Of a stretch of DNA of 64,000 bases, positions 4,370 to 62,543 are shown one piece after another. The DNA is from Coffea arabica. Its lineage: Eukaryota; Streptophyta; Magnoliopsida; Gentianales; Rubiaceae. The notes under the pieces were generated by a model. That model saw nothing but the letters and a program-made list of their open reading frames with translations, was not told the origin of the DNA and did no database searches. Location: the NCBI RefSeq assembly GCF_036785885.1, contig NC_092323.1, forward strand, positions 6,178,501 to 6,242,500, read 5' to 3'. Both the position numbers and the translations under genes were made by a program. Within the stretch, counting starts at the first letter, position 1. Each line of letters begins with the position of its first letter.

Positions 4370-4743
4370 TTCCAAGGTATCATCAAATCGTTCTGGGTTT
4401 TTTTCTCTTTTATTATTTGCGCCCCTAAATTAGGTTATTTAGTCTCTTTTGTTTATTGAACTTTTCTGTATGTTGGTTTGCGTTCTGTCTTTTTTCCCCT
4501 CCTCGAATTCAATTCATCATCACATCCCATGAAGAATTGGTTTAGATGCTAGATTGGTTATCTTTTTCTTCATCTACTAAAAGTTTGATATTAGATGACC
4601 ATTCATTCGTTTCCTTTTCAATTGATCTTTAATTTTTTTTTTCGGCTGGCTGTTATCTGTTATCGTTTCCTTTTTTGTTGATTTTACGGGTCTGTGCCTC
4701 ATTTACTTTTTAATTTTGGTTGTTTATTTTTTGGTCATTAAAG
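4370..4743 (+). other. Probable 5'-UTR intron of the ABCF4 gene
   Basis: A leader exon ending 'ttctttccaag' is followed by 'gtatcatc' and by about 360 bp of T-rich sequence. The tract ends 'ttggtcattaaag', eight bases before the ATG codon region. The pattern fits a leader intron with donor near 4375 and acceptor AG at 4742-4743. No transcript evidence is available. Confidence 0.55.
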
Positions 4744-4750
4744 CACTGCG

Positions 4751-6934
4751 ATGGGTAAGAAGAAAACAGATGATGTTGGGGCTAAGCCAAGTGGTAAAGA
4801 CGGGAAAAAAGAGAAGCTTTCTGTTTCTGCTATGCTTGCTGGTATGGACCAGAAACCTGAAAAGACCAAGAGTTCATCTTCTTCGTTGAGCTCTGTAACT
4901 AGTAAGCCGAGGTCAAAATCAGCTCCCAAAGTGTCAGCTTACACTGATGATATTGATCTCCCTCCTTCTGATGATGAAGAGGAGGAAGGCTATGGTTCTG
5001 ATGAAGAGCAGGGACAGAATGCTTCTCGTACGCATCCAAGCAGACAGAACAGAATTGATGGTAGGCCGCTTGAAATTTTGGTTACTGACAAAGAGTTGAA
5101 GAAACGAGAAAAGAAGGATATGATTGCTGCCCAAGCTACTGAGATTGCTAAACAAGAGGCCCTTAAAGATGATCATGATGCTTTTACGGTAGTTATTGGT
5201 AGCCGTGCTTCTGTTCTTGATGGTCAGGATGAAGCTGATGCCAATGTCAAGGATATAACAATTGATAATTTTTCGGTGTCTGCTCGGGGAAAGGAGCTCT
5301 TAAAGAATGCATCAGTTAAGATATCTCATGGAAAGAGGTATGGATTGGTTGGTCCCAACGGCAAGGGCAAGTCTACTTTATTGAAGCTTCTTGCTTGGAG
5401 GAAGATTCCCGTACCCAAAAACATAGATGTCCTTTTGGTCGAACAAGAGGTGGTTGGTGATGATAGAACTGCTCTTGAAGCAGTTGTTGCAGCTAATGAA
5501 GAACTCATCAACCTCCGGCAAGAGGTAGCTAGTTTGCAGAATGCATCTTCAGATTCTGTTGGTGATGAGAAGGACGATGATGATGATGATGCAGGGGAGA
5601 AGCTTGCCGAGTTGTATGAAAAATTGGAGCTAATGGGTTCGGATGCTGCAGAGGCTCAGGCATCAAAAATTCTTGCTGGGTTGGGTTTCACCAAGGATAT
5701 GCAGGCCCGTCCTACCAGGTCATTTAGTGGTGGTTGGAGGATGAGAATTTCACTAGCTCGGGCACTTTTTGTTCAGCCAACTCTGTTGCTATTGGATGAA
5801 CCCACCAATCATCTTGACCTGAGGGCCGTTCTCTGGTTAGAGGAGTACTTATGCAGATGGAAGAAAACTCTTATTGTTGTTTCGCATGACCGTGATTTCC
5901 TTAATACTGTTTGCAATGAAATTATTCACCTCCATGACATGAAGCTGCAATATTATCGTGGAAATTTTGATAGTTTTGAAAGTGGATATGAGCAGCGTCG
6001 CAAAGAGATGAATAAGAAGTATGAGATTTATGACAAGCAGTTGAAAGCTGCCAAGAGGTCTGGAAGTCGCACTCAACAGGAGAAGGTCAAAGATCGAGCC
6101 AAATTTAATGCTGCCAAGGAAACGTCCAAGAGCAAAGCTAAAGGCAAGGCTGATGAGGATGAGCCGCAGCATGAGGCCCCTCAAAAGTGGAGAGATTACA
6201 CTGTGGAGTTCCATTTCCCTGAGCCTACAGAGCTAACACCTCCCCTCTTGCAGCTCATTGAAGTTAGTTTCAGCTATCCAAATCGACAGGATTTTAGGCT
6301 ATCTAATGTAGATGTTGGTATTGATATGGGAACTCGTGTTGCTATTGTGGGGCCTAATGGTGCTGGGAAATCTACCTTGCTGAATCTTCTTGCTGGTGAT
6401 TTAGTTGCCACAGAGGGTGAAGTTCGGAGGAGTCAAAAGTTAAGGATTGGCAGATATTCACAGCACTTTGTGGACCTTCTGACAATGGATGAGACGCCAG
6501 TTCAATATCTTCTTCGTCTTCATCCTGATCAAGAGGGCCTGAGTAAACAAGAGGCTGTTCGTGCAAAGCTGGGGAAATTTGGACTCCCCAGCCATAATCA
6601 CCTTACTCCAATTGCAAAATTATCTGGAGGACAAAAGGCCCGGGTTGTCTTCACTTCAATTTCCATGTCAAAGCCACATATTTTGCTATTGGATGAGCCA
6701 ACTAATCATTTGGATATGCAGAGCATTGATGCACTAGCTGATGCGCTTGATGAGTTTACTGGCGGTGTTGTCCTAGTCAGCCATGACTCAAGGCTTATAT
6801 CACGCGTATGCGAAGATGAAGAACGAAGTGAAATTTGGGTAGTGGAGAATGGGACTGTCGAGACTTTCCCCGGCACTTTTGAGGAGTACAAGGAAGAGCT
6901 CCTCAAGGAAATAAGAGCGGAGGTTGATGAGTGA
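4751..6934 (+). CDS. ABCF4: ABC transporter F family member 4 (GCN20-type ABC ATPase)
   Basis: An uninterrupted 727-codon frame encodes a soluble ABC protein with two nucleotide-binding domains and no membrane segments, as in the ABCF/GCN20 family. The first 95 or so residues are Lys/Ser/Asp/Glu-rich and probably disordered. Domain 1 has Walker A GPNGKGKST (residues 201-209), signature SFSGGW and Walker B LLLLDEPTNHLD (about 345). A charged linker follows, then domain 2 with GPNGAGKST (about 534), LSGGQ (about 625) and a second LLLLDEPTNHLD (about 646). Yeast Gcn20 acts with Gcn1 in eIF2-alpha kinase activation; Arabidopsis ABCF4/GCN4 (about 723 residues) is the likely counterpart and is linked to translation and stomatal immunity. 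The start follows a probable leader intron. The gene converges on the LRR-WD40 gene downstream. Confidence 0.93.
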   Translation: MGKKKTDDVGAKPSGKDGKKEKLSVSAMLAGMDQKPEKTKSSSSSLSSVTSKPRSKSAPKVSAYTDDIDLPPSDDEEEEGYGSDEEQGQNASRTHPSRQNRIDGRPLEILVTDKELKKREKKDMIAAQATEIAKQEALKDDHDAFTVVIGSRASVLDGQDEADANVKDITIDNFSVSARGKELLKNASVKISHGKRYGLVGPNGKGKSTLLKLLAWRKIPVPKNIDVLLVEQEVVGDDRTALEAVVAANEELINLRQEVASLQNASSDSVGDEKDDDDDDAGEKLAELYEKLELMGSDAAEAQASKILAGLGFTKDMQARPTRSFSGGWRMRISLARALFVQPTLLLLDEPTNHLDLRAVLWLEEYLCRWKKTLIVVSHDRDFLNTVCNEIIHLHDMKLQYYRGNFDSFESGYEQRRKEMNKKYEIYDKQLKAAKRSGSRTQQEKVKDRAKFNAAKETSKSKAKGKADEDEPQHEAPQKWRDYTVEFHFPEPTELTPPLLQLIEVSFSYPNRQDFRLSNVDVGIDMGTRVAIVGPNGAGKSTLLNLLAGDLVATEGEVRRSQKLRIGRYSQHFVDLLTMDETPVQYLLRLHPDQEGLSKQEAVRAKLGKFGLPSHNHLTPIAKLSGGQKARVVFTSISMSKPHILLLDEPTNHLDMQSIDALADALDEFTGGVVLVSHDSRLISRVCEDEERSEIWVVENGTVETFPGTFEEYKEELLKEIRAEVDE

Positions 6935-8696: not shown

Positions 8697-11600
8697 TCAA
8701 CCTCCCCATCCAAAGCGAGGGTAGAAATCTTGGGATTCAGAATCTTGTTTAGCATGATGACTTGAAGCCAGCAAATTGACCTGTGTGAGGAAGTGCATTT
8801 GACTGACCATCACAAAAGATGACGTGTCGTCATTGATATGAAGAATGAGGGGGTTTAACTTTTACCTTAACAATCCCCCATCGTGAGCTTGGACGAACAT
8901 AGGCAGCTAAAACAGCCATATGAAAGTGCTGTTTCGAAAAAAATGAAAAATAAAACATAAACATTGGCAGTGAGTAGGAACCGTTCACTTGCACGGACAA
9001 TAAAAGAGACTCGGTAATAAAATACTTCAGGAAGACGCCATTTTGAAGCCGAGACAACTTACACGAAATGGATCACTTCTCAAAGACTGCACATACATTG
9101 AGCTCCCCAGAGTCCTATCCTGTAAAAGAAATCAAGGAAGCAAGCTTTCAGGACATGCTATCGTGATTTTTCAGTTGATTGTTCTTAAATTTGTCTTTTG
9201 CAGGAAGTCACTGCTGATAACAAAGAAAGGCACGTATCTTAAATGCTCCAAGACTGCACTATACCTGCAGATGGACATCCCTTAACCGCCTTCCCGTTTG
9301 GGCACAGCAAATTCTTAGAATGGATTCATCAGAACTTCCACTGATGATATAGTCTCTACCGTTCATGTAATATGATCTAGTGAAATTATGAGAACTTCCT
9401 GTTGAAGATATTTCAAATCTTGTGTGAAGCCTCCCATCAACGGCCAAAAGTTGTCTCACCTGCGACCATGACAATTAAGCCTCATGTTAAACTGGCACAA
9501 GATCATTAACTAATTACTGCTAGTGTTTTTTAAAAATTGATGGCTCAATGGTATTGACATCACGTGACACTGATAATTTGGTTGTTCTTGACTTTGTTAC
9601 TTGTCACATTTAAATCTACTAAGTCACACTCTGGTAGCATTACAAATCCTAACTGAATTAAAGGGGGTGACTTATCAGGCCTCTGGCAGGAATTTGCATT
9701 CTGCTCTAATCTAATGTATATTAGTAGTAGCTGTAGTTAATGCCAATCTGACTGCTTTTAGGGCTTGAGTTACAATCTAAATACCTCATTGTCCACGGCT
9801 GATACAAGCAGATAAAGGTCATCAGGTGAAAAGCAGACCATTACATTTCCTCTTGAGCTTGAAGAAGTATAGCAAGGTAGTGTTGGTTTTTGTCTTAAAT
9901 CCCACATCTTGACATCACAGTCATATGATGAAGTAACAAGAAGGTGTGGAGAGCAATTGGCAAATTTAGCAACATTAATTGTTTCTCGATGTATATCTGT
10001 CAACAACTGCAAGCGTCTGCCAGTGCAGAGATCGTATACTGCAAGTTTTCTCGAATAACCACTAGCCAAGAACTTATCATCACTTGAATTAACATGAATT
10101 GAAGTCAGCTGATCAAAGTCATCATAGAATTTAGTGCTGGAAGTCCAACGGCTATCCTCAACTTTTGTTGTCACTTGATTGATGTCATATAATCTCAAGG
10201 AACCTTTCTCAAAACCAGCAAGAAGCTAACATAGCAAAATCAAGAATAAATAATCAGCAGTAGCCCCATAATCCTGTAGTTTGAAACTCCATAATTTAGA
10301 GCCCTCAGTTTGTTTGTACTAGAATACTTCAATGCGGACAAGCACCGAAGCATCAGATTGTACGTCGAGCTATGATAAAGTAACAAAATCATGACAAATA
10401 AAACAGCAGTCAAGGCAAGTGCCTACCTTTGCTGGATGCTGATTAAGCCAACATAGTGCCATTGCACTGTTAGAAGTTTCCAAGGCTGGAATATACTTGA
10501 AGAGGCTTCCTTTATCATGATTGATGACAACCACTTCCCCATCCAGTGTTCCAAAACCCATTAGAGAAGCATCAGATGGGTGATACTCAAACTGCCTAGG
10601 CCGGAGGCTTCTGCTACCTTCTCCCAAAGTACTGCAGATCTGAGACATAGGAAGGTGGACGGGCCACACTGAAGAGCCAAATTTTGCCGCACAAATGGAC
10701 CTGGTATAGAAAAATTTACTCTTTTGGCAAGATGACTGCTTCTTTATGGTAGACCTTTCATGGTATCCACAACTTGTTCCTGTCTCACGCATATACAAAA
10801 TGTTGCTAACACTCTCCCCATGCTGTCGTTTATATGGCAAGTACTCAAAATATTTTGAGAAGACCATTTTGGCCATGTCCCTGTCCACAAGTCTTACTGG
10901 GATGTTATCTAGAACCTGTAAATGGGGTAGTGATGCAATCATGTACTCCCTGTAGTGGTTCTCAAAGCAGATTGGAGAAGGATTTTCTAGAACTTTCATT
11001 TTAGAGGCAATTGAGGAATCTTTCACATCCAAGTCAAGCACACTTGTAGGGGACTCACCATCCTCTTCAGTCTCCAATTTTGCATGAGAAACCTGGCATA
11101 TGCCAAACAATTGATCAAATAACAGAATAATTGTGTTCCATCTATCAATAAGACAAGTAAAGCTGTTTCAGACCTCAATCTGCAGCATGCTCAAGCCAAC
11201 TGATACAGGATGAGCATTGGAAGACCGACCAGATGAGCTAATTCCATGAAGATTATATGACATCTTACCTATTAATCTATCATCTATTGAGTTGTGAGAT
11301 ATGCTGTGAGTATGAATATTTACTAATGAATCTCCAACAGAGACAAATTTGGGCGATTCATCTTGAATAGAAGATTCAACATTCCCAACAGAAATAGTTG
11401 TTTGTTGACACTTTGAATGCTCACTCGTGTGCTCTGCCACATTTCTGTCACAAGCAAGATCTCTTCTCTCTCTGGACAAAGTAGGACATGATCCAGTGTT
11501 TTTGCAGCACGCACAGTTTTGAAACCGGATTTCAACCAAGGAATTTAATCTGGACAAGGCAGCACTAGTTGTCCACAGATTTGCAACTCTTGTTCCACAT

Positions 11601-20819: not shown

Positions 20820-23800
20820 CAGGGGCGGAGGGAAGGGGGGGGCCAGGGGGGGCAACCGCCCCCCTCCAATTGTTAAAAAAAAAAATTTCTAAGTAAAAAA
20901 AATTTTATTATTATGTTTTGCCCCCCCAAAAATTAATCAAAAAATTTACTTTGCCCCCCCAAGAGCCCAAATAATAATATTTGAAAGTTCAAATAACAAA
21001 GAATTATTTTCTTAACGTATGGAGTGCAAAGAAAAGATAGCCAGACACCAGTTAGTTAACTTTGGCAATTGACTGCCACAATTCTTCTTCCTAAGTAGAA
21101 ATGTCAAAGTAGAAAATAGAAACGTCAAAGGCTTGAGCCTTGAAGAACTTTCTCCTGTGAAGGCTTGAAGAAACTTTTTCCTGTGAAGACCTTCCCCCGC
21201 TGGCTAAGGAATGCCAGCCCTCAATGTCACCGTCAACATTCCCAGTCGGAAATGGATCCCGGTGGCTGCCCCTCCAATCGAAGATCTTCAGTTGCAACGC
21301 CAAAATCTCCTCTGATTAGGCACGTATTAGAACAACGCCAGGTGAGTGTTTTTCCGCACCACCAACTCCTCTGCTCTAGCAACTTCAGCCAGGAAAGAAA
21401 TCAATTCCTCGTTAAATCCCCACGTCCTGATTCTTAATTTTCCTCAATCATCATCGCCCATATCGAATATCTTCTAACCCAGATTTTACTTTTCTTGCCC
21501 CCAAAATCCCCTGTTCGCTTCCGATGAGTTTCCAAGCAATGGCTTTTGATCATTTCCAACCCCACATTTTGCGGCCTTCATGCACGGCGATATTCCCTGG
21601 AGGACACTGCATCTGCCCAGACTGCCCTCTTTCTGATTTGCAATAGATGAAACCCCCGAGCTGAATTTCATTTCTCTCAAGAATGATTATGTGAATTCAA
21701 TGAGTAGCATCGTTTTCCACTTAGGTGATTTGTTTGATAATCATAATGGTGAAGTCAGGTTTGACTTGAAGAATGATTATAGAAGAAAGTAAGGATTGTA
21801 CATTTGTACCATTGCATTTTGCATGGTCTAGCCGTCTAGGTAATTTTTTTTTTTACAATTGGAGGGGTGTAAAAATTTTTTTTTTACTTAGAAATTTATT
21901 TAGTGAAATGTGGGTGTAAAAAAGTTCGCCCGCTAGTTGTTTGATGAATTGATCAAGAGGAACTTGTATTATTTTTCGTACTTGTAGCATTGAGTTTTAT
22001 TGGGCAAATAACTTGTCGCATTGAGTTTTAGTTTTCTGCTTGTCATTTTAATGATTTTATTTTATCATTGCTTTATTTATCATGGTTTTCTAGACAGCAG
22101 GCAGTAAGACCTCCTGAATATTTGTTCCTCTAGAATTGTCTATCTTTGTTTCTCGACATTGTGCTGAGAATTTGCTATGCAATTTAAGGAGTTTAAATTG
22201 TACATATTTATTATGGTCGGTTTCCGTTTATACTTTATAGTAATGCTTGTTTAGACTATAGAAACTTTTACTGGCATGGATAGTTATTGATTATTTTTCG
22301 GATTACAGTAGTTGATGAGTTCAAGTAGGTGTTAGTTGTTCAAGTTCAGCCGATTTAATAACAAGCTATGAAAACTTCCTTGAGATATGTTTGAAATGAG
22401 AACTTGTTCTGCTCTAATGGAGATCTTTTATCATTTGTTTGCATTTTATTATTCAATAATACTTTGTGCATGTCACTTATGTCTACTTAGGTTGCAAATG
22501 TTCTTGCTGCTTTTATTCCATCTCTATAGGCCATAATCAGCATTTCTCAATCAATTTTATTTCGATTACAGGTTGTTGTTTGTTGCAAATATAGTGGTAA
22601 TGGCCAACAGGACAATTGATTCTTTTTTCAAGAAAAGACGTCTAGAACCAAGTGGAAGTGGTGAAATTCCTTGTCCTCTTCGTGATTCTTCTCCTAAGCA
22701 TCAAACAAATAAATTTTGTAGAGCTGAATCATTAGAGTTTGATATTTCATCCATAGAACGTGATCCTGGAAAGAGAAAATCCATTTGGGAATATCTAGAG
22801 CATCAAAGGGATGAGGTACGGAGAGCATATACTAAATTTGGGCCATACCAACCTGAGCTTCCGATTGAATCAATGGTTGTTGACAAGAAGGGCCGACGTT
22901 TCCTTTTCTCTTGGTATAAATTGTTTCCAGATTGGTTGGAATTTTCTCCAACAAAGAATGCTGCCTTTTGTCTTCCTTGCTCACTTTTTTCCAAGCCAAC
23001 GGACCGTTTTGGATCAATGGCCTTCACAACTAGTGGATTTAGATCATGGAAGAAGGTAAATGATGGAAAAAATTGTGCTTTTTTAAATCACATTGGAAAA
23101 GATCCTAACTCATCACACAAAGTGGCAATGCAATGCTATCATGATTTGGGAAACTCATTGCAACATCTTGACAAAATTATTGAGAAGCAAAATTCTGAGC
23201 AGGTTGCAAAAAATCGGTTGCAACTTCAAGTTTCCATAGATGCTGCAAAATGGTGTGCATTTCAAGCGGTGGCTTTTAGGGGTCATGATGAAAGTTTAGA
23301 TTCTAACAATCGAGGTAATTTTATTGAGTTGATCAAGCATGTGTCTTCTTATAATGAAAAAGTGGCTGCTGTGGTTCTTGATAATGCTCCTCGAAATGCA
23401 TCTTATACTTCTCCTACGATCCAAAAGGAGATATTGTCCATTTGGTCGATCAAGATACAAAAGCATATTCGAGAGGAGATTAGTGATTCAAAATTTTCTA
23501 TACTTGTTGATGAGGCTCAAGATAGATCAAAAAGAGAGCAAATGGCTATTGTTCTTAGATTTGTGGACAAGCAAGGCTATATTCGAGAGAGATTTTTTGA
23601 CATTGTTCATGTGCACGAAACCAATTCCTTGACTTTGAAGAAGGAGATATGTGATGTCCTTTCTCGCCATAATCTTAGTGTGCAAAACATTCGTGGCCAA
23701 GGATATGATGGAGCTAGTAACATGCGTGGAGAATGGAATGGACTGCAAGCATTATTTATTCAGGAGTGCCCCTATGCATATTATATTCACTGTTTTGCTC

Positions 23801-25220
23801 ATCGACTGCAATTAACATTGGTAGCAACATCTCAAGAGGTAATTCCTGTGGAACAATTCTTTACAAATTTATCTCTTCTTATAAATTTAGTTTCATCTTC
23901 TTGCAAACGGGTGGACCAACTTAGAGTTGCTAGAGCTGCTAGAATTGCTGAATTGATTGCTATTGATGAACTTGAGACTGGTAGGGGTCAGAATCAGATG
24001 GGTACCTTAAAACGGCCAGGGACTACAAGATGGGGGTCTCATTTTAGTTCTATCTGTAGCTTATTCACAGAATATGAAGACATTTGCTCTGTCCTAATTG
24101 ATGTTATCAATTATGGAAATACATCAACTCAAAAGAAGTGAAGCTGACAGAGTTTATGATTTCATGACATCCTTTGATTTTGTTCTTGTTATGCATATGA
24201 TGAGGGACATTTTAGGATTTGCACAAGTACTTTCTCAAGCTTTACAATGCAAATCTCAAGATATTTTGAATGCCCTTAAATTGGTTTCAGTAACAAAGGA
24301 TCGACTTCAAAGTTACAGAGATAATGGATGGAATGAATTGTTCACCAATGTAAAGACATTTTGTGATGCACGAAATATAGAGATGCCTGATATGAATGTC
24401 ATTTATAAAGCAGGTCGAGGAAGAATTCGAAAACAAAATGATCCAATTACCATGGAGCATCACTACAGGATTGATGTGTTTTTGGCAACGGTTGATTCTC
24501 AAATACTTGAAATGAAGAATAGGTTTAAGGAAGATGTAATAGAGTTGCTTATTCTTAGTTCAGCATTGCACCCCAAAGATAATTTTCAGGCTTTCAATAT
24601 TGAACAAATTTGTCAACTTGCAAACAAGTTTTATTCAGCTGACTTCACAGATCAAGAGAAGTTACACTTAAGAACTCAATTAGAGCTTTTCCAAATTGAG
24701 TTTTCCTGTAATTCTCAACTTCAAAATTTGTCATCACTTCAGGAGTTGTGTCAAGTGTTAGCGAAGACAAGAAAGTCAATGTGCTATACTCTTATTGATA
24801 GATTGATTCGTCTTATTTTGACTCTTCCTGTTTCAACAGCTACAACAGAGCGTGCATTTTCTGCTATGAAAATCATCAAGACTTGTTTGCGTTCTAGGAT
24901 GGAGGAAGACTTTCTTGCCAACTCTATGATAATGTATATTGAGAAAGAAATTGCTAGAACTTTTGATGTAAATTCAATCATTGATGACTTTGATAAAATT
25001 AAAAATCGTCGTGCACAATTTCATATGTCTCACACAGTCAAATAGATTTGTAAATATGATGATATTTTTGTATATGTGAAGCGTATAAGTAATTTTCATT
25101 CTATATAAGGTTGTTTCTAATCTTATGGTATATATGTTCACATTATTTTTTTTGTAAATATATTTTACTTTCATTGTTATAGACTCGCCCCCCCAAAGTT
25201 AATTCCTGGCTCCGCCACTG
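20820..25220 (+). mobile_element. 4.4-kb hAT transposon, nearly intact
   Basis: The terminal repeats are CAGGGGCGGAG on the left and, reverse-complemented, CAGTGGCGGAG on the right (10 of 11 identical). A perfect 8-bp target duplication GTTATGAG (20812-20819 and 25221-25228) fixes both boundaries. The element carries one transposase gene in its right half. The left 1.8 kb holds poly-G/C subterminal sequence, a probable leader exon ending 'acgccag' then 'gtgagtg' near 21340, and an inverted copy of the subterminal sequence at about 21848-21897. The perfect target duplication suggests a recent insertion. Confidence 0.93.
22600..25045 (+). pseudogene. hAT transposase (ZMYM1/TTF-type zinc finger), one frameshift
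   Basis: The first frame (22600-24141) starts MANRTIDSFFKKRR just after an acceptor-like 'gattacag'. It includes a TTF-type zinc-finger region (FCLPCSLFSK followed by SSH) and the DUF4371/RNase H-like core with ILVDEAQDRS, GQGYDGASNM and HCFAHRLQL. The second frame, offset by one base, runs to 25045. It ends with the hAT dimerisation region LPVSTATTERAFSAMKIIK. The homology passes from one frame to the other near 24125-24140, at a short A run, so a single one-base change separates the two parts. Otherwise roughly 810 residues are uninterrupted. It belongs to the ZMYM1-like class of plant hAT transposases, which cut and paste DNA through the terminal repeats. Whether other copies supply activity cannot be seen. 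Confidence 0.88.
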
Positions 25221-53575: not shown

Positions 53576-55184
53576 CTAAACCATAATATTATGACGAATG
53601 TGCCTGAGCAGCACCGGAACGACGACGTCCGGCGAGCTCAACTGGGGAAGATGACCGTCGGTGGACATGACCTCCACCACGGACTCACACCCCAGATTTT
53701 GATGAAGGTACTCGGAGACCACCACCGGTACGGCCAAGTCCTTCATGCTCTGGATAATGTGACAAGGCACCCTCACATGGGCTAGCAAATGTCTCGTGTC
53801 ACTACAGAAAATGGTTTGAGCAACGCTGAGTGCTATGTCAGGCCTCATGTTGAATAATGTCCTGCTGAATTCTTGCACGGCAACCGAGTCCATGTCTCCT
53901 CCAACGGCCAAGGGTGCAAATCCGTCGCACCATGCCCTGTAATTTGACTTCATGGCTTCGAATAACTGGTCCAGACCTTCCTGCTCGAACCCTCCATAGT
54001 AATCCACGTCGTTAAGGTACCTGTTTGATTGGAGGAAATTTGTTTTTAAACAAAAATAAAAGCAAAATAGAATGACGAAAGAAGTGTAGGAAGAAAAAAA
54101 AAATTAATTTAATCAATTGACTACACGTAGAATTTCCTTTTTATGTTTGTCGGATTATGAAGGGGGTGGGGATGGTTTTGCTATTCCAGGCCCCACTTCA
54201 AAAGTCATTATTCTTTTCTACTAAGTGGAAAAAACAAATGGAATGGAATACATCAATTCCAACTTGTAAGTCTCAACCCGAAGGCTGCGTCAACTTGAGA
54301 GAAAATAGATTGCTATTGTATTACGTTCGCTTTCATGATACGGGGTTGGGAACAAATGGAAAGCAGCAGACGGTATCTGACATACCTGCAGGTGGTAAAA
54401 TATAGAGCTTGGTTGATTTCACATTATAAAATTTTTAGGATAAAATAATTCCAGAAAAAATTTTCCCCCTAAAAGGAAATGAAATTTCTTCCATCATTAG
54501 GAGTTAGAACAGTAAAAGCAACAAATATTCCGCAGGATTAGACGACGTGATTTTTTTCCCCTTGGCCTGCAATTAACCCCAAAAGATGGAAACCAAGGAT
54601 TATGGCTGCAGTTCTTCTTGTAAACAACACCGACCCCTTGCCTGAATATTGTACTAAACTAGCCCATAAGAAGTAACGAAATTTTGGGAAAATTTATGGG
54701 TTTGTTAGCTTAATTCCAGTACGTGTTCAGTATACTTTGTAATTCAGGTGTACCAGCTGGGCGTTGTGGGAATTAATTTGCAGCAGCAGCAGTACTAGTA
54801 ATTACTATTTAGTTACCTAGGAGAGCCAGAAACCATGACGAGTTTGGTGAAGAGGTCAGGGCGAGAAATAGAAGCGACGGCGCCAATCATGGCCGAAACG
54901 GAGTGGCCAACATATATGCAGGAATCCACCCGGAGCTCCTCCAGTATTGCGATCACATCACAGGCATAGCCCTCCAGAGTAGCATATCTTTCGAAGTCAA
55001 AGTAGTCCGGATTGGTGGTTCCGGCGCCCATCTTATCGAACAAAATAACCCTGTAATCCTCCACTAGGTGTGGCACCAGGTGCTTCCACACCGATTGATC
55101 CGTCCCGAACCCATGCGCCAGCACTATGGTCTGCTCCCCAGAACCTACGACCTTGGCGTTGTGAGCTTCCTCCACTATCCCCAT
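53576..55184 (-). CDS. KAI2: KAI2/HTL karrikin receptor paralogue A (alpha/beta hydrolase)
   Basis: Two exons, 54817-55184 and 53576-54020, give 270 residues, the exact length of Arabidopsis KAI2, with the intron at the conserved site after SGSP. The start MGIVEEAHN matches the family N-terminus, so the in-frame upstream codon is ignored. The catalytic triad is intact: Ser95 in VGHSVSAM, Asp217 in MKDLAVP, His246 in DGHLPQL. Pocket residues Tyr124, Phe134, Leu142, Phe157, Phe174 and Phe194 are present. KAI2 perceives karrikins and an unknown endogenous ligand, then binds MAX2 to trigger SMAX1 breakdown. Differences from the usual sequence include FDKMGAG for YDNMGAG and SVAQTIF for SVGQTIF. 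Confidence 0.92.
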
Positions 55185-55560
55185 CTGATTTCTGTTACTA
55201 GTACCACTTATTCTCGTTCCCTTCTCCTCGCAAATTTGGTGAAAGTGATAACTAATTAGGTCTAATAGCAAGGCTGGCTAATTTTTAAGGTCGTTCCACA
55301 AGACTCGAAAACTTGTTTATATTGGGATTAAGCAGGCACTTGGGCTTTGATTGTCTGTTACTTGACTTACTATCTGTGAGAATTTTTTAGCACTTTTCTG
55401 GGCGGTAATGGAGAGAGAGCTTTATAGTGGGATGAAGGATGATGACTAACGACTAAGAACCACATGTGCTTCGACATTGTTCTTGATGAGAATATACGTA
55501 CATACGAATGGTCATGCTGTGTACATGCCTATACAAAGTTAATTCTCAAATTATTAAAAA
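55185..55560. other. Upstream region of KAI2 copy A
   Basis: Promoter and leader sequence of the minus-strand gene are expected here. No individual element can be named with confidence. Confidence 0.4.
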
Positions 55561-55564
55561 AAAA

Positions 55565-56212
55565 AGTAAAAAATCCAGGGAGTTCCTAAATTATTATCAT
55601 TGTACATTTTGCACTCTTGATATATTTTTTTCTTTCAATTGGCCCCTGAACAATTAAAACTTGATAGTTTAAGGACTTCTGATCATTTTAGACATAAATC
55701 CAAACGGAACCGATGGGCATTGTTGTCCAACATTAATCAAAAGCATCGAGAGAGAGAGAGAGCAGGAGTAGAAATTCTGAGAGAAAAAAAAAACCTTTAT
55801 TTTACTTAAATTCTTCATCAAATTTCTCCATAAAATTCCCAAATTCATTGATTTCATACTTGAAAAGGACATGAAAAATCTAATGAAACTTTGGACACTC
55901 GAGTATGAAATCAATGAATTTGGGGTTTTTGTAGAGAAATTTGATAAAGAGTTCAAGCAAAATAAAGGATTTTTTCTTTTAAGGGTTTCTGTTCTTACTC
56001 TCGCTACTTTTTATTAAGTTCTCAATACCTTTGATTATGGTCAGACAATAATGCCCTTGTATTTCGGCAGAATTTATGTTTAAAATGGTCAAAATTCCTC
56101 AAAGTATACATTTTAAATTGTTCAGGAACCAGTCGAAGACAAAAAAATAAATCAGGGGTCAAAAGTGGACAACAATGACAGTTTAGGGACTCCCCCAACT
56201 TTTTTACTCTTA
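55565..56212. mobile_element. Foldback (long inverted repeat) element, about 650 bp
   Basis: The two halves are inverted copies over about 300 bp each. The outer ends 'aagtaaaaaatccagggagt' and 'actcccccaacttttttact' pair. Inner blocks 'ttcattgatttcatact' (about 55843) and 'gtatgaaatcaatgaa' (about 55902) pair across a loop near 55862-55900. The arms have diverged moderately. T/A-rich flanks 'ttaaaaaaaa' may be the target duplication. Confidence 0.75.
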
Positions 56213-56215
56213 AAA

Positions 56216-59200
56216 AAAATACTAGAAAATTAAAGAGAAAAGTTAATTCGCTTAAGTGTTGACGTTTGACGCGTATACAACTTGAAATTATTCGTCTGCA
56301 TGTGGTCGTCATCCATTTGTGAGCTGATCGAGGGGTCACGGACAGCTGTTTATGCATTTTGATTAATTCAATCCTTCTGCATACCACAGAGGGTTAAGAA
56401 TTTTATAATACTAATCAAGAAGGATCAACAAATTTGAGAGACAATTGAAGTTTGCATGATGGGCAGTGGAATCTTCTGGGGCTGTGACGGGGATTGGTCG
56501 ACGAAATTGTGTGAGATTCCCTCCTAATGGAGTCAGCAGTTTTATAAGTGTTGCCCTGCGCGGACTCCATGCTCTGAAGATTACGACTCATCTTGCTTGA
56601 TTGGATCTTCGAAATTGGCTAGTTTCTTTAGTAACACAATTATTGGGGGGTTGTTGATGCTGATGTTTCTGTTAGTTTCATAAGAAGGTTGTTACTGTAC
56701 TTAGCGGCATACTTTAACTTCCATGATGAGGATATGCATGGAGTATTTGTCGTAGCATACAATTCGAAAGACGATACCAGACGATAAACATATAGAGATA
56801 ATTCTCTGTAGTAATTAATCTTTGCTGAAGTTTGGAAAAAAAAGATTAATCTTAGCTGAAGTTGAGAATGCCCAACAGGTCACATCGACCGTAATTTCAC
56901 AATAGACAGCCTTGCATTCGTCTCACTGTTGATGAGGTATTATTTTCATGTTGGAGCCCAACTGAGACTGACATAATGGGCTTCTCATTTCGCTCTCCAG
57001 CAACCAAGAGGTCTAGGCAAATGCTACTCCATGGTGAAAGTGCACTAATGCAGCATATTCCGGTCGATTGCACGCTTTTGTGCGGAAGTCTACATCCACC
57101 AATGTCATCGTAGTTTTACCAAGAATCAAATTAGAGAAAGTTACGGATGCTGTTTTTAATTAGAGGTGATTTATGATTTTGTGCAAGAATTTAAGGCCTT
57201 TATCTAATTTTAGAAGCCGGACACGTCAGAATTGAATTTGAGAAATCAAGACAGACTTCCGACCTGGAAAAATATTAGCTACACCACGTCACGTGACAAT
57301 ACACTAATACCAATCAAAACTACGTCAAATAATGCGGTGAATCACTCCTTATCTAGCATTTACTATACAAGAAATGACCAATCACCATTATTTAATGATG
57401 AGTGATTGATATTAATGTACTATACGACTTACGTGGCACACCTAATACCTTTTCCTTGAACCTCAGATGCTTATGGAAGGTTTTGCGAATATTTATGTTA
57501 ATAAAAAGAAAATTTCCAATCTCCCGTTTAGAAACTAATTAAACAAAACTGAAGATAGTTATAGGTAATCTAAAATAAGGAAGAACTGAGCAAATTTCTT
57601 CTGCAACTTTAAAATAATGTGGACCAGTTCATATGCTATAACAAAAAAGAAGAAATAAAACCGTTGTTTTGTACTCAAATGAGACTAGTATGATGAACGA
57701 ACAATAAACTACGCCACGACAGGAATATGACAACGTCCTTTTCTCTTCTTGCTCCTGTCCAAGTCTACAGTTCACGCGTAAGGAAATTTCATTTGAATTG
57801 TTTCGAGGGATGCTCTGCTCATTTTGATGCATCAATTTGCTGTAAGATCAATCTCCCATTCAGATATCCTGGGATTCGAGAGGACTGTGGAGGGACCAGA
57901 GAGAGGAAGTAGGTGCGATTAAGGCCCCTTCCGGAAAATATATTTTATTATAGATTAATAGAGTTATAAACGAGCTGAACTGTTTGCTTTCAAGTTCAGT
58001 TGATTAGGTTATCAAGTGATGCTCAAGTTCGGCTCCTTTATGTAACGAGTCAAAATTTTTGTTTGAATTTAACTTGTTAAAATTATCTTGAATTCAAACT
58101 CGAACTTGATTTCGATTCATATAACATGAATGAGTCATTTGAACTTGAAAAGTCTAAATGTGTTTAATTATCTTATACAATTTTACAACTCAAAAAATAT
58201 AACCAATTTAAGCCTATTTAATGAGAAAAATTACGCCAAATATAAAAAGGATTTGTAATATTTAAACAAAATAAAATCTTAAGCAACCAAGACAAGATAA
58301 ATCTACATAATTACTAAGAAAAATTAGTAATATTTGTTCGAATAAATGTCTAAACGAGTTTAAACAAACTATTCTTGAGTCAAACCTAACTTGGTTCATC
58401 TAATTAAACAAGTCTAATTTAATGTTTGAGCTTGCTCATTTAATTAAATTTACGAGTTGAACTCAAGCTTATACCAGCCAAAGCCAAGCAGGCTGTACAT
58501 TTAACAGATCTACACATTAATCAACTATAGTAGAACATTTTTATTTGCTTTCTTTACATGTTGTCCCGAATGATACTAAGCAAACACGCATGTTGATTCC
58601 CTAGTAAAGAAAAACTACCCATATTGAACTGCCACGAGCTAGGAGCACGTCACGTTATTTGTTCTGAAAATTTCGGATTAGTAAAGGTCCGGTTGACCTG
58701 ATGAATGCATTGTAAACTTAGTAGGTCATTGGGTCAGCACGACTCCTTTATTCGTATGGCCATTTTTATTTTTTTTTTTCCTGTTAACCATCGACTTCTA
58801 CGGATGAGGAGAGTTAAAAGAGATAGGTTATGCCTTTAGACCAAAAGATTGTACTGCTGCACATGATTTAAATTTTATTGTAATTGTAAAAATTTAAACC
58901 TGTGACCTGCACCATATATAGTATTTCACTCGGTGGCTAACCCGTCAGGGATGAGAGTTAGTTTGGGGCTGAGCATCCTGATATAGCAAGACTGTAGTCT
59001 TGTCACCTGCCGATTGACCATTTGAGACAAGCATTTAAAGACTCCAGAGTCCAAACCAAGACATCTTTTGAAGACTCGAGTGTGAATTTCTCATGGTATA
59101 TTATTGGTGTTACCTATGATAAGAAGGGACATACCTGCATATATGAACATGTATGTTAATATGATAAAGACCTCAGATGCATCTTTATACTTCGTCTGAT

Positions 59201-61622
59201 GACGAGAGGCATGTGTGTATATTTGTAGTCTGTTATAAAAAATGGTGCAAGAATTTCGTGTATGTTTTTATTTTTTATTTTATTTTTTTGTCTACACAGG
59301 GGTGTATGTTCATTATTGATCAAATGGGTCATGAGTCCAACAGCTAATTTAGGCCATTTCCCTGATTGATTGATTGATATATATGCGTACCGAAGTTTTA
59401 TGATTTTCACCTCTGAGATGTTTTATTTTTCAAGGAAGTGTATATATATATAGAGAGAGAGATGGTAGATGCTGTAATTCATAGAGTTGCAAATTACTCT
59501 TAGATCCTGTTTGATAACCCAATTCAATATTTAAATTTAATAGATTCAGATTTTAATATATTCAGACCGTTTGATAATAAAAAATTGAACATTTGAATTA
59601 ATTAAGTGCCACTGAATTTTCTGGGTAAAACTTGCTTTCAAAATTAAGTAATAAACTATTCACTTATCACTGAATGTGATATGCACTCAAATGTATTGGA
59701 TTTAATATTGGGAAAATGACCTGTTTCATCCTTCACATTTCGTAAAAGTATTCTTTTCGTCCCTCACATTTAAAACGAAACAAATTGGTCCTTCACATTT
59801 AAAAACCCAAGCTTTTACATCCTAGAAATAAACTCTCAGTTGTGAATCAAACCAACCCGGTTACAAATTTTGGGGATAGAATTGGTAGATCACTCGCAAA
59901 AACATATTTCCAACAAATAAATTAAAGCAATTAAACAATCTTAATTAAAACCCATTTGTTTCTTCAAAAGAACGAAATAGCGCTAAAGCTCTCAAGCACT
60001 AAACCCTTAGACATATTCCTCAGTTTTCAGACTTCAGTTTCATTACTTCTTTTTAAGTCTTACCATTTTCCTATATCTTTATCCCTAAAATATATGTATT
60101 TCTACTATCTAATTTGTGGATGCTTTTGTGTATTTCTCTTCCCTAAAAGTTATCGCGTTGGTCACCTAACTCCTATCCAGTTCTTAATTTGGGCTTATAT
60201 TTGGAAAATCCCGTCCGTTTGTCTGACAATTAAACTGACCACAAAGAAAAGTTTCTTGTTCCATTTGTGGTCTGACGGAAAGCCCAATTACTGGAGTTTT
60301 TGCTTCCACACTTATATTGATAGGTCTGAAAACAGTAGCATGTTTTGGGCTTATCCTATTTCAGGCATAATGAGCTGTATGCCAGAATGTCCACTTAGCC
60401 CAACGCAAGTTGGCCCGCTTATATGTACCCTTCTGATTCAAACATGCGCGTGGCATTGCCCACGAAGGTTATAATACATACATGTGAAGAAAAGCACAAC
60501 GGCCATGCGGTCCTTCTCTTCAAGTAGCGCCTTCGGATGTTGTCCGGCATTGCAATGTTAATTAGTGAAACTTATTCTGGAGTTTTATTTGTGAAACCTT
60601 CTTTTAGTTTTAATTACAAGCACTTGGTAATGTTTAGCTCTTTTTTGGCAAGTGGAGTTTTGTTAGTTTAAATCAATTCGTGTAATTCTTATTATCATTA
60701 GTATGAACTCATACAATGTTGGTGTAATCGTAAATTGTACGCTAACTTAATTGTATGAATTGTAAATTCAAGTTTACATAAAAGAATTACATTAAACGAT
60801 TTGAGTTGAACTTTTAATTTGTCGAACATGGTTGGTATCACGCGGACAAGGGGCACAAACGGTTGCAGGTGCAACTGTTACTGCCGATTGTGTGCATTTT
60901 TTATTGTGCGTAATTTTGATTACACACGGTGCAACTTTCTTTGCACACGACGTAACTTTAGAACAAATTTTTATAGGTTCCACACACGGCATGAAAATCG
61001 AGTTACAAGATATAATCTGAGTCGTACAAAATTTTTTGATCAAATCATAGCCGTCAACTGCCAGGAACGGTTGTTCCTGCCCCATTTCCGTATCATGCTG
61101 TTGGGAGTCAGAAGCTTGAAAACGTGTCGTCCCCTCACGGTCACATCAAGCGCGGGTCCAGTGTATCTCTTTTGCCACTCTCAATTCCAGCTCAGCTCAT
61201 AATATACCCACCCTCCAGGGCAATTTCTACAAGCTGCCAATTTTAGAATTAGTTTTGACTTTTCAGTTTGCACCACCGTTCAAATCTTATCCATTACAAT
61301 GAGCTAATAATCTTGTCAAGACTGAGCCTTTAGCAATGAGAATTCTTAGGATCAAGTTTTCACTAAATTGTAATTTGTCTGCACGAGCGTTATGATCATT
61401 ATGCATCAATTGTAATCTTAAATAACACGATTGAAAAAAACGATCACTAAAACATACAATTACCTCTAAGCTGTAAGAGGAATTGAAAATGGAAACAAAC
61501 GTTACAAATATTTTTTTTACAAAAAAAAAAAAAACGCACGCACACGCACACGCACACAGTCAAAGCCCATCTACGAAGCTTAGTACAAAATACAAGTACA
61601 AACGACGTCCGCTGATCAGAAA
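56216..61622. other. Repeat-rich spacer between the KAI2 paralogues
   Basis: At about 57940-58510 lies an old relative of GAGCTCGAG-rich repeats, with alternating 'ctcgaactt' and 'gagttgaactcaagctt' motifs. At 59710-59870 a repeat-type end reads 'aaatgacctgtttcatcctt' with several 'cttcacattt' units. A 172-codon plus-strand frame runs 59956-60474. At 60830-61130 a repeat has 'ggttgcaggtgcaactgtta' and the near-palindrome 'aggaacggttgttcct'. No host gene is supported. Confidence 0.5.
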
Positions 61623-62543
61623 TCACTCATTTCCAATATCATGTCGAATATGTCGGAGAATGACCGGAATTGTGATGTCCGGCGAGCTTAACTGTGGCAG
61701 GTGACCCTCCGTAGAAATGACCTCAACCAGAGACTGGCCCCCAAGATTCTTGTGGAGATACTCCGACACTGCTAACGGTACGGCCAAGTCCTTGGTGCTT
61801 TGGACGATATGGCAAGGGACGGTGACGCGGCAGAGAAAATGCCTGAGGTCGAACGTAAATATGGTCCGAAACACGCTCAGTGCTATGTCCGGCCTCATGT
61901 TGAACAAGGTCCTGCTGAATTCTTGGACGGCAACCGAGTCCATGTCTCCCCCTACCACAAGGGGTGCAAATCCAGAGCACCACGACTTGTAATTGGCCTC
62001 TATTGCATTGCAGAGTTGATCCACATCTTCTTTCTCAAATCCTCCGAAGTAGTCGTCAGTGTTTATGAACCTTCAAGAAATCAAAAGGGTAAGCAACTTT
62101 TTTTTTTTGGAAGTCATGGTACATAACGACTGCAATCAATCCTAACTACTGGATTGGAAGCGAAACTTTCTTTACCGCGGGGAAGCCGCAATCATGATGA
62201 GTTTCTCGAAAAGATCAGGGCGAAAGATGGAGGCAATTGCACCCGTCATGGAGGACAGAGAATGGCCGACAAAGATGCACGATTGAATTTGGAGCTCCTC
62301 CAAAATGGCCAGTAAATCATAGGCATAGCCTTCAAGAGAGGCATATCTTTCGAAGTCGAAGTAGTCGGGGTTCGTCGTTCCAGCTCCCATGTTGTCGTAA
62401 AGGACGACGCGGTACTCATCAACAAGGTGAGGTACGAGATGTTTCCAAAGGGATTGGTCGGTGCCGAAGCCATGGCCAAGGACGACGGTCTTCTCGCCTG
62501 ACCCCAGGACCTTCACGTTATGTGCATCTTCAGCCACTCCCAT
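61623..62543 (-). CDS. KAI2: KAI2/HTL karrikin receptor paralogue B (alpha/beta hydrolase)
   Basis: Two exons, 62176-62543 and 61623-62070, give 271 residues with the intron at the same site as copy A, here only about 105 bp. The triad is Ser95 (VGHSLSSM), Asp217 (TKDLAVP) and His246 (EGHLPQL). It keeps [14 protein letters not shown] but differs from the usual receptor around the active site: Leu96 for Val, Ser98 for Ala, Phe124 for Tyr, and SVFRTIF for SVGQTIF. Residue 96 has been implicated in ligand preference in other KAI2 proteins. The intact frame and splice sites argue for a working gene. It lies 6.4 kb upstream of copy A in the same orientation, so the two look like tandem duplicates that have since diverged. 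Confidence 0.92.

Follow-up and report, generated by a model that had tools for sequence, protein, structure and literature searches.

Tandem KAI2 genes in Coffea arabica resemble the Y124 and F124 receptor types of asterids

The KAI2 pair and its counterpart on a second contig

Two KAI2 genes lie in tandem within a 64,000-nucleotide stretch of the Coffea arabica genome (contig NC_092323.1, positions 6,178,501 to 6,242,500, hereafter the window; it belongs to the contig that we call C14 in the 1.198-Gb assembly of 131 contigs that was searched). Both are encoded on the minus strand and are intact, with two exons each (copy A, 55184-53576; copy B, 62543-61623; Table 1), and it is very probable that they represent one gene of each of the standard asterid KAI2 types, and that the division of ligands between them predates the split of this lineage from that of Striga. 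A preliminary description of the locus had reported two complete KAI2 genes in the same orientation with intact catalytic triads, and the gene models and alignment bear this out. The predicted proteins have 270 (A) and 271 (B) residues, each with Ser95, Asp217 and His246 (AtKAI2 numbering), and both match the Pfam profiles Abhydrolase_6 and Abhydrolase_1 of the alpha/beta-hydrolase fold family above their cut-offs. The two introns are of the GT-AG class and split the same codon. The strength of the top full-length matches among solved KAI2 structures (E = 2.6e-150 for A and 7.7e-144 for B), together with the recurrence of the pair at the corresponding place on contig C13, means that the pair is not a chance resemblance.

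The copies share 195 of 270 residues and differ at the remaining 75. In exon 1, 260 of 368 bases agree and 108 (29%) differ, as do 32 of 123 residues (26%), so that the earlier estimate of roughly a quarter was a fair one; in exon 2, 320 of 445 bases agree. When the neighbourhoods of A and B were compared by blastn, the exons gave the only significant matches.

On C13, both genes of the pair are again intact (A, 4565365-4567031; B, 4573112-4574037), and the surroundings, including most of the spacer between A and B, align between C14 and C13 at 90-94% (blastn). D14, a label backed by best structure matches to DAD2 and D14, is likewise found on two contigs, C19 and C20. Because the tandem pair and D14 are each present in this way, we read the C13/C14 and C19/C20 duplicates as those of a young allotetraploid genome. 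As would be expected of Arabica coffee, a lamiid asterid of the Rubiaceae, methyltransferase-family genes of the assembly closely resemble two enzymes of the caffeine pathway, XMT (2eg5; 131 of 141 aligned residues identical) and DXMT (2efj), both of them structures from Coffea canephora.

Residues of the binding pocket

Asterid KAI2 proteins are described as being of a Y124-type, with V96/Y124/L139/A161, or of an F124-type, with L96/F124/I139/V161 and a conserved F190 (PMC11350264; PMC12988820, both of which cite Martinez et al. 2022 for these types); in lamiids, the clades KAI2c and KAI2i are reported to bear the Y124-type and F124-type sets, respectively (PMC4705300; PMC12988820). Copy A has the complete Y124-type set, with Ala190. 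Copy B has L96/F124/V139/V161/F190, which is the F124-type set if either Ile or Val is allowed at position 139. Across the 13 noncatalytic pocket positions taken from the key-residue table of the review PMC12988820, A and B differ at just those five (96, 124, 139, 161 and 190), and since these positions are reported to separate the two types, it is likely that the two proteins differ in ligand preference.

Each copy is readily matched among known proteins. Copy A agrees with AtKAI2 at 12 of the 13 positions (the exception is 190) and at 212 of 270 residues overall, and with PsKAI2B at 215 of 269. Copy B agrees with ShKAI2iB (PDB 5dnu) at 12 of the 13 (the exception is 218), including all five of the states that set it apart from A, and at 196 of 266 residues overall. 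The motifs quoted in the preliminary description (GHSLSSM, Phe124 and SVFRTIF in B; FDKMGAG and SVAQTIF in A) are all present. It is also true, as was observed there, that the places where A departs from the usual KAI2 are not those where B does, but for copy A this has little meaning: Ala190, where AtKAI2 has Gly and PsKAI2B Leu, is listed as a typical residue in the review PMC12988820, and the other departures, F49 and K51, fall outside its key-residue list. These last two residues (encoded at 55032-55040) occur in copy A on both contigs, at positions where AtKAI2, PsKAI2B, ShKAI2iB and copy B all have Tyr and Asn.

The comparison of copy B with ShKAI2iB can be extended to structure through the published descriptions of relatives' crystal structures, on which what follows rests. 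In ShKAI2iB, KAR1 is described as being held by Phe190 and Leu142, and a change of Val139 to Leu as raising the affinity for KAR1 about two-fold (PMC4979206); L142, V139 and F190 are all present in copy B. Unlike ShKAI2iB, however, copy B has L218 and L187 in place of Met and Arg, and Lys136 and Asn144 in place of Pro and Gly. The inward displacement of the lid helix in ShKAI2iB is attributed to several features, Pro136, Gly144 and Arg187 among them (PMC4979206), so copy B does not necessarily have so small a cavity. All 11 residues tabled for contact with (-)-germacrene D in the petunia protein PhKAI2ia (PMC12988820) are present in copy B, and eight of the 11 in copy A.

Relationships and age of the two copies

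In a nine-row tree (A and B from C13 and C14, AtKAI2, PsKAI2B, ShKAI2iB, and the genome's own D14 from C19 and C20), the KAI2 proteins were set apart from D14 by a branch with 100/100 support, and copy B grouped with ShKAI2iB with 100/99 support. Sums of phmmer bit scores over four proteins point the same way: the pairing of A with ShHTL1 and B with ShKAI2iB totals 952.9 bits, whereas the two alternatives reach 864.5 and 856.0. Among the matches listed for both copies, A outscored B by 21 to 40 bits against AtKAI2, PsKAI2B, ShHTL1 and the chain 8vcz (D14L), which we take to be rice KAI2, and B outscored A by 57 bits against ShKAI2iB. ShHTL1 is classed as a KAI2c protein (PMC12988820). From the tree tests and the four-point sums, we infer that A and B had already separated when this lineage and that of Striga parted.

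Copy B also outscored A, by 14 to 47 bits, against each listed chain of the Orobanchaceae KAI2d strigolactone receptors or HTL4/5/7/8, as well as against the unnamed chains 9wgm and 9wgq. It differs from KAI2d proteins, however, at position 124, which is Phe in copy B, whereas they are reported to have small hydrophobic residues there (PMC12988820).

The physical adjacency of A and B, and the fact that the five pocket differences between them are of reported functional weight, would fit a history in which the genes were duplicated in tandem recently, within this lineage, and their pockets then diverged adaptively. We nevertheless regard such a history as extremely improbable. A tree in which A and B were forced together as closest relatives was rejected (P value of the approximately unbiased test, p-AU, 0.00015), synonymous sites between the copies are saturated (synonymous divergence, dS, about 2.6; nonsynonymous divergence, dN, 0.17), and no significant similarity remains between their flanks. 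Nor is the pocket enriched for changes between A and B (5 of 13 positions, against 70 of 254 elsewhere; one-sided p = 0.29), and the five other pairs tested likewise showed no significant excess. The proposal of the preliminary description, that ligand preference had diverged after duplication, thus survives in part. A difference in preference between the copies is plausible; it belongs to an old asterid split, and as the pocket change is shared with ShKAI2iB and older than this lineage, it is not creditable to local adaptation after duplication. Indeed, the outcome named there as contrary to the proposal, ordinary orthologous types with no excess of pocket change, is largely what we find.

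The sharing of pocket states between copy B and ShKAI2iB could, in principle, be misleading. A pocket comprises few sites, which may be under shared pressure, and ShKAI2iB was flagged as a long branch, so that the F124-type residues of copy B might have arisen independently and merely converged on those of KAI2i. This we judge very improbable: when 26 pocket and near-pocket columns were removed, copy B still grouped with ShKAI2iB (98/98), and the clade of A with B was still rejected (p-AU 0.0025). It is also improbable that one of the copies is a decaying or redundant gene. Seven of the 270 residues of copy A do vary between C13 and C14, among them Cys75 and Gly138 (window copy) and Arg210 (C13 copy), but A and B are intact on both contigs, and nonsynonymous changes are fewer than neutral for each gene. 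Over the first 269 codons, compared between C13 and C14, where the counts are small, copy A has seven synonymous and seven nonsynonymous differences (dN/dS 0.28; below neutral, one-sided Fisher p = 0.023) and copy B has six and three (dN/dS 0.15; p = 0.006). Neutral evolution of one copy, which had been named beforehand as a possible outcome, is therefore not apparent; rather, both copies look to be under purifying selection between the homoeologous contigs.

Gene conversion between A and B found no convincing support: the copies share at most 23 identical nucleotides in a row (permutation p = 0.085) and at most seven consecutive identical synonymous codons (p = 0.40). The windowed synonymous difference between the copies falls to about 0.45 near codons 151-190, which is not significant by either run-length test.

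Proposed functions

By analogy with the family, a ligand entering either receptor would be bound, and possibly cleaved, through the chemistry of Ser95, His246 and Asp217, upon which the receptor would close and change shape; the closed form would recruit the F-box protein MAX2, leading to the degradation of SMAX1-type repressors. Closure, the joining of MAX2 and the degradation of such repressors are described for the family in PMC12988820. The prevailing view has the endogenous KAI2 ligand perceived by KAI2c proteins, and karrikins, or (-)-germacrene D in the case of petunia, by KAI2i proteins (PMC12988820; PMC4705300). On this pattern copy A would serve the endogenous ligand, and copy B would answer a different set, most likely KAR1 in preference to KAR2, with a sesquiterpene, for example (-)-germacrene D, as a further possibility. 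The reading of different ligands would also be the reason why both genes have been retained.

Several points weigh against so straightforward an assignment. Copy B has Val139 rather than the Ile of the stated F124-type consensus, although Val139 is reported for LsKAI2b and ShKAI2i (PMC12988820). The tree contains just three KAI2 proteins from outside (AtKAI2, PsKAI2B and the long-branched ShKAI2iB) and does not resolve the branching order among copy A, AtKAI2 and PsKAI2B, and the comparisons with ShHTL1 and the KAI2d proteins were made by score only, outside the tree. Moreover, in Castilleja, GR24, an analogue of strigolactone, is described as destabilising a KAI2i protein (PMC11697714); the ligands of KAI2i proteins are thus not uniform, and the KAR1 preference suggested here for copy B is for this reason a guess.

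The duplicated KAI2a and KAI2b genes of the legumes Lotus and pea offer a parallel, in that they too are reported to have diverged in ligand preference (PMC7808659; PMC11350264). In contrast to the present pair, theirs is an independent duplication, for which other key residues (157, 160/161 and 190) are described (PMC7808659; PMC11350264; PMC12988820).

Origin of the tandem arrangement

Both receptor types were already known; what appears to be new is that they lie in tandem. The arrangement may preserve the old duplication that created KAI2i, which would then have arisen by tandem duplication, a reading that rests on one genome. It is possible, though less simple, that a later rearrangement brought the genes together. 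More tentatively still, and with rather more doubt than belief, one might see in the pair, still preserved, the very tandem duplication from which the asterid F124-type receptors sprang, in the F124-type line the source of the petunia receptor for germacrene D and of the Striga strigolactone receptors, and in copy B a coffee receptor for volatile sesquiterpenes, KAR1 or both. No mention of a KAI2c-KAI2i tandem was found in the literature searched, which is a weak negative as few subscription papers were covered. The tomato genes Solyc02g064760 and Solyc02g064770 are presumably neighbouring KAI2 genes; the one paper found in this connection lists Solyc02g064770 simply as a 'Probable esterase'.

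Should the layout be ancestral, the F124 type would have originated by tandem duplication, and a conserved and a derived receptor still lying side by side would show that the derived type arose in this way and not by duplication of the whole genome. The question has some importance because KAI2i is described as the site of new small-molecule senses in asterids: for karrikinolide in lettuce, for a sesquiterpene volatile in petunia and, by way of KAI2d, for host strigolactones in parasites (PMC12988820; PMC11350264). The pair would also serve, in a nonparasitic plant, as a system in which to test what residues determine the choice of ligand. Beyond this, its value is that of a good annotation of two receptor genes.

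Table 1. Component parts of the KAI2 pair, in window coordinates
Feature	Positions	Strand	Basis
Copy A (KAI2c / Y124-type), exon 1, start codon at 55184	54817..55184	-	gene model, GT donor, tblastn
Copy A intron, 796 bp, GTAACT...AAACAG	54021..54816	-	gene model
Copy A exon 2, including stop codon	53576..54020	-	gene model
Copy B (KAI2i / F124-type), exon 1, start codon at 62543	62176..62543	-	gene model, GT donor
Copy B intron, 105 bp, GTAAAG...TTGAAG	62071..62175	-	gene model
Copy B exon 2, including stop codon	61623..62070	-	gene model
Spacer, 6.4 kb, with copy B upstream and copy A downstream	55185..61622	.	blastn

Related sequences in the genome and other features of the window

The search of the genome scored best candidates only, so that counts of KAI2 genes are lower bounds. 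With exon 2 it listed at least 11 matches: four are A and B on C14 and C13, two are D14 (C19 and C20), and five are weaker (35-41% identity) and are presumably D14-like or DLK genes. A third KAI2-like piece, comprising residues 6 to about 88-92 only, lies on C20 (locus L012, 3007-2759) and C19 (locus L011, 3251-2988); a corresponding exon 2 was found neither in these 6-kb loci nor among the listed exon-2 matches. Its presence on both contigs suggests a copy that was truncated long ago. Three further loci, L013 (C14), L018 (C11) and L019 (C12), hold sequences less closely related to KAI2 (exon 1 identity 40-45%), which we take to be D14-like. Some 14 Mb separates L013 from the window, and the matches listed contained no partner for it on C13.

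Elsewhere in the window, a hAT-type transposase-like region at 22537-25045 has two successive, overlapping open frames, the first with a DUF4371 domain and the second with a hAT dimerisation domain. Minus-strand open frames at 9773-11167 match DHU1 (DWD hypersensitive to UV-B 1, N-terminal part) and WD40 repeats, with further frames reaching 12413. Finally, a single open frame of 730 codons at 4742-6934 contains two ABC_tran domains and is presumably ABCF/GCN20-like.

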